Source of the DNA: a virus
Strand: one strand, 5' to 3'
IMG/VR virus record: IMGVR_UViG_3300030117_000893
Coordinates: 1 to 23,910 of that record
Length of the DNA stretch: 23,910 nt
Each line of letters starts with the position of its first letter. Within the stretch, counting starts at the first letter, position 1. The notes beneath the pieces are model-generated. The model worked only from the letters and a program-made list of their open reading frames with translations, had not been told where the DNA came from and made no database searches. The position numbers were made by a program, and so were the translations under genes. Positions 2,293-23,910 of the stretch are shown piece by piece.

Positions 2293-2742
2293 CTACGCTA
2301 CGTCATCAATGAGTGCAGCCACTACACAATTAACTGTACTTGCGCTTGAAATTGCGTGTACTTCAGCCACTGTTGTGTTTGGAATCTGGATACACATATG
2401 CTGCCCAGCACCTACATAAAGCGCGTCACCAATAGAAGAAGTAACAGTGCCGCCATCTATAACAATATAAACATGATTTGTTGAATCTTTATTCTGAACA
2501 AACAACCATTTTACTTTGTCTGCTGTGTGTACCGCAACTGGTGCTGTGTCATCATCTACTGCTGTGTAATCTATAAAGTTACCAGCTATTAAGTCTGTAC
2601 TTGCATTACTTACACTTGTAAGTTTGTAGTACCATTTATCATTTGCGTCAGCAGGGGGAACAGTCGTTGTATTTGAAATAGTTTTTGCTATCTCATCTGG
2701 TAAAACTGTAACCTGCGAAACGACTACTGCATCATCTGCCAT
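2293..2742 (-). CDS. Hypothetical tail-module protein, beta-rich
   Basis: This is an acidic 149-residue protein with alternating hydrophobic and Thr/Val-rich stretches, for example VKWLFVQNKDSTNHVYIVIDGG near the middle and GQHMCIQIPNTTVAEVHAIS later. I do not recognise a named domain. The pattern suggests a small beta-sandwich like those in phage tail or capsid accessory proteins. The ATG follows a good ribosome binding site (AGGAG, 7 bases upstream). It sits between the fibre adaptor and another small beta-rich gene, so it is probably a virion tail component. There are no catalytic motifs, signal peptide or membrane segments. Confidence 0.68.
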   Translation of the reverse strand: MADDAVVVSQVTVLPDEIAKTISNTTTVPPADANDKWYYKLTSVSNASTDLIAGNFIDYTAVDDDTAPVAVHTADKVKWLFVQNKDSTNHVYIVIDGGTVTSSIGDALYVGAGQHMCIQIPNTTVAEVHAISSASTVNCVVAALIDDVA

Positions 2743-2751
2743 TGTATTCTC

Positions 2752-3681
2752 CTATCCTAAGGCAATCGAAAGAGCTAGTGCATTATCTGAAACAACAGAT
2801 ACATCACTAGCAATTCCAGCAACTGTCGTAACGTTTGCTGAAATTCCTGAGACTGTTGAAATATCACTAGCTAATGGGCCTAGTGCATTAACGTTTGAAA
2901 TGTTTGAACCTACTAAATTTATATTTGTACTGTTGCCAGCAACAGCAGTTACATCCGAACTTATGCCAGCAACTGTAGTTACATTGCCAGCTATACCAGC
3001 TACAGATGTAACATTAGAACTAATACCAGCAACTGTTGTAACATTAGATGAAATCCCAGCTACTGTTGTTACGTTAGACGCAATCCCAGCTACTGTTTGT
3101 ATTGCATCGGTAGCATCTGTGCCGTCTTCGATGTCACCTAACGTAGCAATGTCAGCAGTAACTTGCGCTAGAGTCTCGACATCAGCAATCAAAGGCCCAG
3201 CTTCTAAATTACCATTTGAAGCATTAAAACCTATAACCCTACCTTTTCTAGCAGCTAATGCTGGCAATTCTAATGTAGCAGCAGGTTCGTAATCATTTAA
3301 CTGAAGTGTTCTACCAACCCGATCATTCAAATCAGAAGCTAAAGCTGTCAAAACGTCAAGTTGCTCATTCAAAGCAGGTCTACTAATTGCTGCACCTGCA
3401 CTAAAGTCTGAAGTTCGCTCGATGGGAACGTCTCTTACAACCGCTACTGATGAGCCGCCAGTTGCGCCTACAACCGCGCTGCCCATAGTTATTGTTCCAG
3501 TTGTTCCATTGCCTCCTGAGATCGAATAGTGAGTTGTAATCGTCTTCAGAGTGCCATCTACATAGATCTTAACTTCATCATCATCGAAAAAATCAAAAGG
3601 AACAGCAAAAGTAGTTTGGCTTGCTCCTTGAGCAACCGTATAATTTACCCTTGGGGTGTTATTTGCTATTGCTATCGCCAT
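2752..3681 (-). CDS. T7-fibre-like N-terminal adaptor with decapeptide repeats
   Basis: The 309-residue protein starts with the tail-binding domain of the T7 gp17 fibre family. Residues about 13-125 contain YTVAQGASQTTFAVPFDFF, VKIYVDGTLK, and an RDVPIERTSDF...ALNEQLDVLTALASDLNDRVGR segment that leads into a helical stretch. Residues 197-306 are eleven ten-residue units of the type VAGIxxNVTT. At 309 residues it is much shorter than T7 gp17 (553) and has no recognisable receptor-binding tip. I infer that it anchors to the tail and carries further appendage proteins encoded downstream. The start has an AAGGAG ribosome binding site at 3687-3692, six bases before the ATG. Confidence 0.85.
   Translation of the reverse strand: MAIAIANNTPRVNYTVAQGASQTTFAVPFDFFDDDEVKIYVDGTLKTITTHYSISGGNGTTGTITMGSAVVGATGGSSVAVVRDVPIERTSDFSAGAAISRPALNEQLDVLTALASDLNDRVGRTLQLNDYEPAATLELPALAARKGRVIGFNASNGNLEAGPLIADVETLAQVTADIATLGDIEDGTDATDAIQTVAGIASNVTTVAGISSNVTTVAGISSNVTSVAGIAGNVTTVAGISSDVTAVAGNSTNINLVGSNISNVNALGPLASDISTVSGISANVTTVAGIASDVSVVSDNALALSIALG
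2764..3093 (-). repeat. Tandem 30-base coding repeat (decapeptide VAGIxxNVTT), 11 units
   Basis: Eleven consecutive 30-base units encode residues 197-306 of the fibre adaptor. Units 1-5 keep VAGI(A/S)xxVT closely, units 6-8 have drifted (VAGNSTNINL, VGSNISNVNA, LGPLASDIST), and units 9-10 return to the consensus. The unit count could change by slippage or recombination, altering fibre shaft length. Confidence 0.85.
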
Positions 3682-3706: not shown

Positions 3707-6700
3707 TTAATCTGAATCAATCGATCTGGCAACATTATTAATCATTGCCCTCGAATCTTCTTTTAACCAAAACAATTCAGAATATGGCAACATTAAATAA
3801 AATTCTTTTAATGCACTACCATAATTGCCATCGTAAATATCAATAACACCATCAGAAAAGTCTTTAATTGTTGAAACACCAGACCCTAAAATAGTAGTAG
3901 CTGCCTCTGTATAACCATCTTTACCATAAAAAGCCAAATTTAATGGATCATTAGTTGGATCATTTAATCCTGCTTGCGTTACTGCTCGAACAGTATTCAT
4001 TGCAACATCGCCATATACAGAAGCTATACCACTACGTTCAATAGCAGATAAAAACTTTTGTTCATTTGTTAATTCATCCCAAACATACTCTGGAGTTCTT
4101 ATTTTTGCCATTAAATAACCAATAGCAAGCATTGCAGCAAAACCACCATATCTATTTTTAATCTGACCTTGAGCCGCAGTGTGTAAAATATTTGTAGCAG
4201 CAGACATTGACCAGTTATAAAACTGAAATGGTAAAGTCATTACGCCTGATTCTAAACGCACATAGCCTGGAAATTCTGGATCTTCTTTAAAAAATGGAAA
4301 TAAACGAGTCGCTTGATTATTAGGTAAAAATACAGAACCATCTGCATAAGTAAAACGTGTTGCTGGAGAAGAACTAAGTATTGTGTTATTAATAGACTGA
4401 TTAACAGCAGCTTTAAATTTAACTTGAGTTTCTAAACTAATACCTTTTTCAGACCACTCTTCTATATTTGCAATTATTAATCCTTTGCTTCGTTGAATAG
4501 GTGCTTTAGCTATTTCTTTTGCAACTAAAACATCAATGCCATGCCGTGCTAAATATTCTAAATCAAACTTAGACGCTGAACCATCAGCCACACGCAAAGA
4601 AACATCAACAAATCTATGTACAGAAAGTACACCACTCAAACCTTTTAAACCAACAGTCATTGGCCCAAGGCCATTTAATATAAAACCACCTTGTTTAATA
4701 GAATCCCAAGATTTACTACCAACTACAGAACCAGAATCTTCTAAAATTTGTCTTTGAACAAAACCTAAAGATAACTCAAGAGCTTCACCATAAATTTCTT
4801 TAACTTGGTAAAATTGTTTTTCCCAATTAGGATCATCAAATATATTAATTAATCCTTTAAGCATTGGTCTAAAACCTTGTTCCATTATTACTTTAGGAAT
4901 ATCGCCTAAAGCAGTAGGACCAGCAGAACCTAAATAATTTAATGAAGTAAATTCTTTTAAAAATTGCACAGAACGATTGGTAAGACTTGTAGGGTCACTT
5001 ATCGAAGTTGCAGTTACTCTTCTATATAATATAGTTAAATTTTTTCTTAGCTCATTTGCTTCTCTAACAGTCATTCCGTTAGTAACTAAATCATCTGTTA
5101 CTTCATCAGCAACTTCTTTAAATGTTCTATTATTAAAAGCATTAGCAAAATCTATTTTAGATCCCATTCTAACATTATATTTACGAACAATATCTCTTAC
5201 GCTTGTGTTTATAAAAGGTAATATTTCTTTATTACCTATTGTTAAACTTCTACTAGGATAATGAACACTTTGCCTAGAAGTAACAGCAGTTCCATCAGGA
5301 TCAGCTAAAATACCTCTTATTATAGAATCAACATAATTGCTTTGAGCAGCAGGTTTATCTTTAAAGTCTTTTGGCTCCCATAAACCACTTTTTTTATTGT
5401 ACTCAAAACCATTTGGATTATCTCTAACGTGAGCTAACAACTTTTGTCTAAATAATTTAGGACCACGTTCATCAATTAAAATAGCTTCTGTATCAAACTC
5501 TCTCATAAAAAATGGTTCTTCTGGTCCAGAAGGTCTAAATTCAGCTTTTTTTAAATATTCTAAATTTTGACTAAGTTCTGCTAATTCTTCTCGAAGACCA
5601 TCGATTCTTTCTTTCCAATATTTTCTTTGTTCTATTAAACGTTCTTGCCCTTCAAGACTTTTAGGCATTTCTTTAGCATTTACCAAAGCTAATTTATCAT
5701 TAGCTAAATCAATCTCAACTTCTTTAGCAATAACACGCTGACCTAAAAATCCAGTTGATCCTAAAACTCCAGAATCAACACCTTCTTTTTTCATTTTTGC
5801 AAAATATCTTTCTAACAACTCAACAGCAGCAGCTTCTTGAGTATTAAAATTTGTGTCTCCAGTAATTCTGCGAATATTTAAATCATCTATCCAATCATCT
5901 AAAGCAACACCTTTACCGCTTGTTTTTTGCCGCGTTTCGGGAAAGAACATAGTTTCTTTCATATCATAGTTTTTTTGCCAAAGCGCAGTTATGTTTTTTT
6001 CAAAAGAATAAAGATCTGATCTTCTTAAATTATTTTTAATTGCAACACTTGCTGGTATTGTAAGGCCAAACTTTTGACCTGTTAATAACATTGAACCATC
6101 ACCAGCTATTGTTAAAGCTGTTCGATGAAAATTATTTAATGCGTTTTTAAATTTTCTTGGAGCATTTTTATCAGCAGTTCTGCGTAAAATAGTTTTCATT
6201 GGAGTTGGCATAAAATCAATCACATCGTAAAAACTTTTTGCTAAACTGTAGGGATTATCAACTCTAGATAATCCTTTATCTAATCTTCTAGCTGCTAACT
6301 CAGTATTTAAGTCGTCTCTTATTTTTATAAGACTAGCTATTTCGCGTTGAATTGTTTCAATAGCTTTTGGATTAGCATCAAAATCTTTTGGAGCATTACC
6401 TCTTAAAATTCTATCTACAAATTTTTGTTTACCTATAGCTTGACCGTGTAAAGCCATAGCTCTAGCTCTTAATTGTATATCACTTTGTTTAGCATATTTT
6501 TTTCTTACACGCTTTGCTAATTCTGGTAGATCTTTTTCTTTTTTAAGAAAGATTTCTTGTTCTCTTATAGTTTGAGCGTGTAAATTTAATGCTCTATGAC
6601 TTGTATCAAATACATTAGTAATAGATTTCTGTGCAATTTTAACTCCACCACCAAACAAAAAACCTAACGCTGTATTAGAAGCTACATAAAACCCTGACTC

Positions 6701-22325: not shown

Positions 22326-22709
22326 TCAGCCTAAGTCAATCTGGACTCGTATGTCTCCAGCCACTTGCACTTGCGATCTATCTATCGGCTTATATCCTGC
22401 ACGGTCTAACAAATCCTTAGCCGCTTCAAGCTGGACATACTCGGACTTTGCCCCAGTTACTAACCTCCGTAACTGCCCAGCAGCTACTGTAGCACTTAGC
22501 CCAAACTCCTCATTCATTCTTTCCATCAGGTATTGCTGCACATGCGGTTGCTTTAACGCCTTGCAAGCACTTACTCTTCCCGACTCCCCATCTGCATATC
22601 CAGCAAGTGGCGCGGCCTTAGTAATACTGCATCCTTTTGCTACTATAGTATCCACTAACGCTGTCTGTTTCCGTGTTAGCTTTCTTACAACTGGCAGGTT
22701 ATTATTCAC
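22326..22709 (-). CDS. terS: Terminase small subunit (DNA recognition), GTG start
   Basis: The 127-residue protein has the small-terminase layout. An N-terminal helix-turn-helix domain spans residues about 11-45 (LTRKQTALVDTIVAKGCSITKAAPLAGY), followed by KALKQPHVQQYLMERM, a central oligomerisation helix and a beta-rich C-terminus (DRSQVQVAGDIRVQIDLG). The start is GTG at 22707-22709, with AGGGGG 5 bases upstream. The ring-forming small subunit binds the packaging site on phage DNA and hands it to the large subunit. It heads the leftward late operon, and recognition sites of this kind often lie in or beside the gene, here near the structured island at 22811-23278. It is clearly richer in G+C than the ejection genes. 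Confidence 0.88.
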   Translation of the reverse strand: MNNNLPVVRKLTRKQTALVDTIVAKGCSITKAAPLAGYADGESGRVSACKALKQPHVQQYLMERMNEEFGLSATVAAGQLRRLVTGAKSEYVQLEAAKDLLDRAGYKPIDRSQVQVAGDIRVQIDLG

Positions 22710-22765
22710 TCTTGCCCCCTTTTCTTTTCCCCCACGCTTTCCTGTTTTATCTGTATTTGTCTATT

Positions 22766-22802
22766 GTTACGTTGCGTAACTTTCTCTGTTACCTAACGTC
22801 AT
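22766..22802. promoter_or_regulatory. Two operator-like inverted repeats
   Basis: A perfect 6-3-6 inverted repeat (GTTACG-TTG-CGTAAC, 22766-22780) is followed by an imperfect copy (GTTACC-TAA-CGTCAT, 22788-22802). The centres are 22 bases apart, about two helical turns, so two protein dimers could sit on one DNA face. The pair lies 57 bases upstream of the terS start, where a repressor or activator of the late operon could act. I could not find a confident -35/-10 pair around it. Confidence 0.5.
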
Positions 22803-22810
22803 ATGGATCA

Positions 22811-23011
22811 TTTCCGCTTCTGTAGCCGCCATAGGGGGCGGCCCATTTCTTTGCGGAAACCGCGCCACCCATCAATAGACCGAGCCTGTAGTCTCGGCCC
22901 CGTAAGACGGGGTGGGTACCGACTTGCTCAGGGGGATTTTACTTGCAAATCCCCCTCGGCTATTCGCCTCACCCCACAAACCGCTTTTAACGGAATTCGT
23001 ATTCACGAATT
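22811..23011. ncRNA. Array of five stem-loops, possible structured RNA (part 1)
   Basis: This non-coding stretch is unusually rich in G+C and folds on itself throughout. SL-A pairs 22811-22817 with 22853-22859 and encloses 22825-22830/22837-22842. SL-B is 22880-22884/22893-22897. SL-C is 22898-22903/22907-22912 with a 3-base loop. SL-D is 22931-22939/22947-22955, a perfect 9-bp stem, extended past a bulge by 22919-22922/22956-22959. SL-E is 22994-23000/23005-23011. No reading frame here looks like a protein. Whether it acts as RNA or DNA, and on which strand, is not decided by the sequence. Confidence 0.5.
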
Positions 23012-23023
23012 AACTAACTAATA

Positions 23024-23278
23024 AAATTGAACACGTTGGAAGAGGAGACAGGGGCGCGCTGACTTATACCCTAAGCAAAATCTGGCTACCACACATTCCC
23101 AGTGTTCCGATTGCTGTTAACCTGCAATTATTCTCATGGCTATTGGCCATGAGTGCAGGGCAATCGGCATAGAGTTCAACAAGAATAGGGATAGGCGATT
23201 CTTGTTGTAGCCAGATTTTGCATAGGGAAAAGTCAGACAAGGTGCGCCCCTGCCGTCCTCTTCCGGCCGGTTCAATTT
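23024..23278. ncRNA. Large multibranched inverted-repeat element, possible phage ncRNA or DNA site
   Basis: The ends pair over about 56 bp interrupted by small loops. The segments are 23024-23032/23270-23278 (9 bp), 23038-23046/23256-23264 (9), 23049-23060/241-252 of the 23 kb block (about 11-12 with wobbles), 23060-23065/23230-23235 (6), 23069-23073/23223-23227 (5) and 23075-23089/23207-23221 (15, perfect). Inside are a weak hairpin (23091-23105), a three-segment hairpin (23107-23114/23160-23167, 23121-23126/23154-23159, 23133-23140/23146-23153) and a 9-bp hairpin (23178-23186/23198-23206). This is a four-way junction layout. It ends 43 bases before the rightward gene. It is not a tRNA, and I cannot match it to a named RNA. 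Confidence 0.65.
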
Positions 23279-23321
23279 GGGGCCACAAACTAAAACATAG
23301 TCAAGTATATAGGAGAATGAA

Positions 23322-23846
23322 ATGGCTAGATCAAAAGTAGATACTAAAGCATTAGATGAAGCAAACAATGTTGACACAACACAGACAGACGCAACCGCTG
23401 TTACTTATGCGCTAGAATATGCAACCATCAGATTTGAGGAATTAATCGAACTATTTGGTGGTACTGAGTGGCAGAAAGAAAATGTTGCCAGAGGTTTTGT
23501 ATCTCAGGCAGAATATTTAATTTCCAATAAAAATAAACAGATCACAAAATATGCAATGGAGGTTCAAATAGCTGAAGAGAATAAAGAACGAGGTATGGCC
23601 ATGTCTCAGACAGCCATAGAAAAAGCTCAGTTTCTTCAGGAGAATTGCGAAATAGAATTAGAAGATTTACAGCTTTATTTGCAGTCTTCTAAAACCGCAT
23701 ACGCTTCATGCGTAGGTAAAAAGTACGAGCCGTTGCAAAAACGCACTGTACCGAACAAGACCCACCGTTCAGCAGCGCAACGCCTCGCAGATCAACAGGC
23801 CGAGCAGAAAAAGGTCGACGCAGCCGTTAAGAAATACGGCAAGTAA
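23322..23846 (+). CDS. Hypothetical phage protein, helical, rightward
   Basis: The 174-residue protein is the only clear gene on the plus strand. The ATG has an AGGAG ribosome binding site 6 bases upstream (23311-23315). The N-terminus is Asp/Thr/Ala-rich, and the middle is a long charged helix (ITKYAMEVQIAEENKERG and on to QENCEIELEDLQLYL). The C-terminus is basic (RSAAQRLADQQAEQKKVDAAVKKYGK). The pattern suggests an oligomeric, possibly nucleic acid-binding protein. I do not recognise a family. It is a single-gene unit closed by a strong terminator, and it is transcribed away from the late operon, so it may be an early or separately controlled gene. Confidence 0.75.
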   Translation: MARSKVDTKALDEANNVDTTQTDATAVTYALEYATIRFEELIELFGGTEWQKENVARGFVSQAEYLISNKNKQITKYAMEVQIAEENKERGMAMSQTAIEKAQFLQENCEIELEDLQLYLQSSKTAYASCVGKKYEPLQKRTVPNKTHRSAAQRLADQQAEQKKVDAAVKKYGK

Positions 23847-23868: not shown

Positions 23869-23896
23869 GGAGCGGCTTCGGTCGCTCCTTTTTTTT
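23869..23896 (+). terminator. Rho-independent terminator
   Basis: An 8-bp stem (23869-23876/23881-23888, one G-T wobble) is capped by a TTCG loop and followed directly by eight Ts (23889-23896). It lies 22 bases after the stop of the rightward 174-codon gene and should end its transcript. Confidence 0.93.
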
Positions 23897-23910
23897 ATGA
23901 CCACCAAAAA

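Follow-up and report, generated by a model that had tools for sequence, protein, structure and literature searches.

Leaders that bury the Shine-Dalgarno site of a gene, whether riboswitch-like or autogenous, form a class of structured RNA to which the T4 regulatory leaders belong. Among other structured RNAs are the pRNA of phi29, which is found near packaging genes, the large and multibranched GOLLD and ROOL RNAs (PMC12286853), and the wcaG and manA motifs, which came from comparative genomics and were reported in marine cyanophages (PMC2864571). The window analysed here is the whole of a linear virus record of 23,910 bases, and it contains at 23024-23278 a structured element that resembles each of these in part. 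The best reading is that this element, written on the + strand, belongs to the leader of the small + gene that follows it and is not a terminase or packaging element. We give a probability of roughly 0.58 to it being a putative structured 5' leader RNA that controls this gene.

Like the leaders that bury a Shine-Dalgarno site, the element is a domain before one gene, with covarying helices and, in most relatives, a closing stem that contains the site. It differs from them in its size, which is 250-450 nt across the relatives, in a sequence that is almost unrecognisable between lineages, and in the site of the window's lineage, which is mostly free. It is large and multibranched like GOLLD and ROOL, but smaller, and linked with a protein-coding gene and the ribosome-binding site of that gene. 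It lies near packaging genes like the phi29 pRNA, but beside an ordinary TerS/TerL pair and with no evidence of a role in a motor. It was recognised by comparative genomics like the wcaG and manA motifs, but in other phages and at other genes. Membership of an Rfam family is defined by a covariance-model score above the gathering threshold, and the Rfam 15 models gave no hits in the window and none in 19 relatives, while a relaxed search returned two hits only, both far below the gathering score. Given the lack of an Rfam match to any of these RNAs, an earlier note on the same DNA is not followed in its suggestions of a GOLLD/ROOL-class RNA or of a role like that of the phi29 pRNA. A structured leader is a known kind of RNA; this family is absent from Rfam 15, and its size, turnover and exchange of modules are unusual. 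No paper describing such an element in pelagiphages was found.

To the left of the element lies a late operon that is read leftward on the - strand and comprises terS, the terminase small subunit and first gene of the operon (22326-22709), an HNH protein, terL, and the portal, capsid, tail and internal virion genes. A tandem repeat of 30/60 bases (2936-3097) lies within a tail-fibre-like gene of the same strand (2752-3681). The location beside the terminase operon given in the earlier note is correct: the element is upstream of terS, 314 nt from its start. The note had not weighed the divergent + gene, which is nearer, only 43 nt downstream of the element. This gene (23322-23846, + strand) is the first after the element, and the family of its 174-aa helical protein follows the element. 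Its Shine-Dalgarno site (23311-23316) is mostly unpaired in the window (P paired 0.23), and an intrinsic terminator (GGAGCGGC-TTCG-GTCGCTCC, then a T run) is found at 23869-23897. In the window, the promoter scan found nothing sigma-70-like upstream of the leader.

The protein is predicted to fold as a helical hairpin (pLDDT 84). The structure search with it gave E < 0.001 for two viral models only, both uncharacterised, together with many PDB coiled coils, and for this reason no function was assigned from the likeness of folds. No relative of the protein was found by tblastn against named phage records, and DNA similarity to named phages was limited to chance matches of 33 bases. The closest named phage by TerL (66% identity) is the cultured Pelagibacter phage EXVC031P Hodr, which has the same gene slot as the window with a similar end motif, though no tblastn relative of the + protein. 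A relative of this protein is encoded on L198 (PBGS01000047.1), which is assigned to a marine Euryarchaeota MAG and is probably a phage contig binned with that genome.

The predicted folding energy of 23024-23278 is -134.2 kcal/mol on the + strand (z -12.9) and -135.7 kcal/mol on the - strand (z -13.9), none of 200 dinucleotide shuffles being equally stable in either case, and z is -13.8 when DNA parameters are used. This bears out the view that such folding is beyond that of random AT-rich DNA. The anatomy described in the earlier note, with six outer segments, a 22-bp hairpin, a 9-bp hairpin and a weak arm, was right almost to the base pair; the outer pairing does close 23024 on 23278, with a total of 58 bp and not about 56 bp. 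The six stacked segments of this outer arm have 9, 12, 12, 5, 5 and 15 bp. Segment 1 (AAATTGAAC, 23024-23032) pairs with 23270-23278, segment 2 (GTTGGAAGAGGA, 23035-23046) with 23256-23267, segments 3 and 4 (23049-23065) with 23241-23252 and 23230-23234, and segments 5 and 6 (23069-23089) with 23223-23227 and 23207-23221. Between segments 4 and 3, the 3' side carries an internal bulge, AGACAA (23235-23240). Inside the outer arm are a weak third arm of 4 bp (ACAC/GTGT, 23091-23105), the three-segment hairpin A (23107-23167), and the perfect 9-bp hairpin B (AACAAGAAT/ATTCTTGTT, 23178-23206). The segments of hairpin A, 8+6+9 bp on the + strand and 8+6+8 on the - strand, are separated by the 6-nt bulges TGTTAA (23115-23120) and ATTATT. 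A search for tRNA and tmRNA gave no match. The absence of a protein frame, as the earlier note had it, is upheld by the lengths of the homologues (254, 255, 256, 261 and 274 nt), given that their indels are not multiples of three.

The element is kept at the same place in six contigs from other metagenomes. In the alignment of these with the window, 94.0% of cells are paired overall, and 88.5% in the weak third arm. The compensatory changes that the earlier note had proposed to look for are present in these homologues, both partners differing in 27 of 94 pairs, compared with 8.5 +/- 2.2 in shuffled alignments, a count reached by none of 500 shuffles, and the signal is lost when the partner is shifted by one to three columns. 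In segment 2, for example, GGAAGAGGA/TCCTCTTCC becomes GAGAGAGGG/CCCTCTCTC in two members (L002 and L004). Whole modules are also exchanged, the tip of hairpin A being swapped for an unrelated perfect hairpin in L003 and hairpin B for a different hairpin in L002, whereas all seven members share the run CAAGGTGCG unchanged at the 3'-side internal bulge. The covariance model R1, trained on sequences of the window family, finds copies outside its training set, as had also been proposed, in L071 (E 6e-10) and L103 (E 3e-8), with a weak match in L081 (E 0.029). Neither of the two outcomes that the earlier note had named as refuting, a stem energy within the range of shuffled sequence or uncompensated changes at paired positions, was obtained. 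The element at 23024-23278 is real and has been kept by evolution. Part of its covariation may nonetheless be mutational, given that hairpins can arise and be maintained through template switching when DNA is replicated (PMC8794818).

In each positive locus R1 matches one place, always directly upstream of the + gene, and all copies of the element lie between terS and this divergent gene. The window's own record has a single copy, with both strands of the inverted repeat at one place. This synteny in all loci and the single copy argue against a mobile inverted-repeat element, which was one of the early alternatives.

Stable structure is found in the intergenic region between terS and the + gene in nearly all terL relatives that have enough sequence upstream of terS, with sequences that are mostly unalignable between lineages. 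At 56 non-redundant loci, the stretch of 300 nt that precedes the ATG of the + gene has a median z of -4.6 on the + strand and -5.6 on the - strand, compared with -1.1 on the + strand for the coding sequence just downstream. In Hodr, a sequence-divergent stable structure occupies the same slot and ends at the start of the + gene. Between the two large families the + proteins are unlike in sequence, yet homologous as profiles (hhalign P 94.8, E 5e-8). A cis-regulatory leader is expected to keep its place just before one homologous gene and to have a conserved secondary structure with compensatory changes, and both features are seen here. Two other phages were considered as carriers of a similar arrangement and rejected: Methylophilales phage MEP301 is without a divergent gene beside terS, and Burkholderia phage BcepC6B has nothing similar in the stretch that was read.

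A possible second conserved leader domain lies upstream of the element at 22806-22929 (+ strand), with counterparts in L102 (2498-2608), L101 (2447-2555), L103 (8-131) and L081 (1238-1125). Its sequence, TTTCCGC...GCGGAAACCGCG.CAC.CATC...GAGCC...GTCTC...GGTGRGTAYCG, is common to diverged phages and is replaced in the closest relatives of the window; evidence for its structure is weak (z -2.1, four doubly changed pairs).

The structure is read as part of the mRNA of the + gene mainly because, in most sister lineages, the closing stem holds the Shine-Dalgarno site of this gene and the flanks of the site covary. Outside the protein family of the window, 34 of 42 leaders pair the GGAG of the + gene with P >= 0.9. 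The partner is mostly 155-330 nt upstream, and the helix so formed is the outermost one of the structure. Of the 73 ORFs taken as controls only 10 come up to this threshold, and four of those are + genes. In these sister lineages the GGAG is fixed, and at nearly every position the flanking bases form pairs of several types, as in AGGAGAAC/GTTCTCCT, CTTGGAG/CTCCAAG and TAAGGAATCCTAG/CTAGGATTCCTTA, or AGGAGG/CCTCCT in Hodr. Structure, covariation, synteny and co-occurrence with one protein family were computed directly, as were the pairing of the Shine-Dalgarno site and its covarying flanks in the relatives. In the 14 leaders of the window's own protein family P stays under 0.9 at every site (0.01-0.81, and less than 0.5 at most of them), and the burial mechanism is therefore proposed for this family by analogy.

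The element might instead act as DNA, as a cruciform or single-strand hairpin that serves as a pac or cos site, a replication origin or a recombination site beside terS. Such an element would fold equally on both strands, as is observed, and would agree with the adjoining terS, with helices that are nearly all Watson-Crick (G.U 6.3% on the + strand and 8.4% on the - strand against 12.9% in shuffled sequence) and with one-sided changes that bring no excess of G.U. We nonetheless consider it unlikely, given that in sister lineages the closing stem stays with the Shine-Dalgarno site of the + gene and has flanks that covary, that the structure follows the + gene and not terS, and that the ends of full-length contigs vary (one is inside terL) and none marks the element.

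A functional tie to the terminase is not supported either. In many relatives a consensus -35 box, TTGACA, that leads into terS is placed between this gene and the element, and the element abuts the + gene; the box is weaker in the window. In most relatives (e.g., L038, L046, L071 and L087) it is adjoined by tandem palindromes, TTACGTnACGTAA, about 22 bp apart, of which the window counterpart is at 22760-22800. The palindromes and TTGACA are likely the activator sites and the -35 box of a late promoter. Because the box points to terS from between the two, terS is probably served by a promoter of its own that lies beyond the element. Near the terS start, many relatives (L014, L021, L038 and others) have a long polypyrimidine tract, GCCCCCCTCTCCCTCTCTCCCCCC, which is a purine tract on the strand of the terS mRNA.

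The choice of strand is not settled by the sequence tests, which conflict in their G.U and A.C counts, tetraloops and folding energy. Covariation on the reverse strand is as good as on the + strand, and for 44 of 56 elements the - strand is the more stable after correction for composition. Over all families, isolated A.C mismatches outnumber G.T on the + strand (22 vs 10), the opposite of what is predicted for a + strand RNA. Only the window family leans to the + strand, with about 15 columns that contain G.U on this strand against 6 on the - strand, and L097 leans the opposite way. Either both strands matter, or template-switching repair of inverted repeats (PMC8794818) blurs the strand signal. 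The slightly greater stability of the - strand in most families, and three G(CUUG)C loops on that strand with none on the + strand, would suit a free-standing large noncoding RNA of the GOLLD/ROOL kind, encoded on either strand and merely located before the + gene; a - strand RNA of this kind would begin close to that gene and extend in the direction of terS. The large multibranched architecture would suit it too, as would the recurrent motifs of the wider family: a six-base-bulge hairpin, GC[TGTTAA]CC...GG-GC, which is that of hairpin A and recurs in ten distinct hairpins including distant relatives, a three-way junction with a CAAG linker (AGTTCGCAA...TTGCGAACT-CAAG-hairpin), and an internal loop, GG[CTT]TCAT...ATGA[ACCTT]CC. 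However, Rfam has no match, the scan found no - strand promoter, and in most relatives the Shine-Dalgarno site of the + gene is inside the structure, which makes a free-standing RNA quite improbable.

For the leader of the + gene, we infer that the intergenic region is transcribed rightward and that the leader regulates the gene. Within a long 5' leader on a monocistronic mRNA of the + gene, the element would be the principal structured domain, and the transcript would run from the leader through the Shine-Dalgarno site and the small helical protein to the terminator. An RNA antiterminator (like HK022 put), which would let the polymerase pass this terminator into early genes, would likewise be a structured RNA at the head of a rightward unit. 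In the window family the unit ends in a strong terminator, and the related 32-kb genome L188 has further genes in the same direction after the unit. Simple terminator matches are found 3' of only 21 of 51 + genes, though, and we regard antitermination as very improbable. From translations judged by eye, the early region of L188 (2078-6301) appears to hold genes for an ERF-like annealing protein (2078-2548), a YqaJ-like exonuclease (2570-3346) and a DUF932-like protein (5363-6301).

The outermost stem of the proposed leader holds the Shine-Dalgarno site in most sister lineages, so that its folding would block translation and its unfolding, or the binding of an effector, would allow translation of the + gene, or the reverse. 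In the lineage of the window the closing stem ends before the site, and control would therefore have to rest on the stability of the mRNA, on a protein that binds it or on a rearrangement of the fold. The simplest guess for the effector that is sensed is the basic-tailed protein of the + gene itself. More tentatively, and as a possibility that we hold with less than even confidence, this may be a new, widespread and very fast-evolving large leader RNA, a modular sensor, probably of a phage protein, whose bulge and junction motifs recur and which gates the first gene divergent from the late operon, with a covariation partly fed by template switching at the DNA level.

If the leader reading is true, a large structured RNA family that is absent from Rfam would be added to marine phages, including a cultured Pelagibacter phage, and a gene pair, the leader and its small helical protein, would be named that may control the early/late divide. 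The combination of strong pairing with little sequence conservation makes this family a good test case for how structure is kept during sequence turnover.
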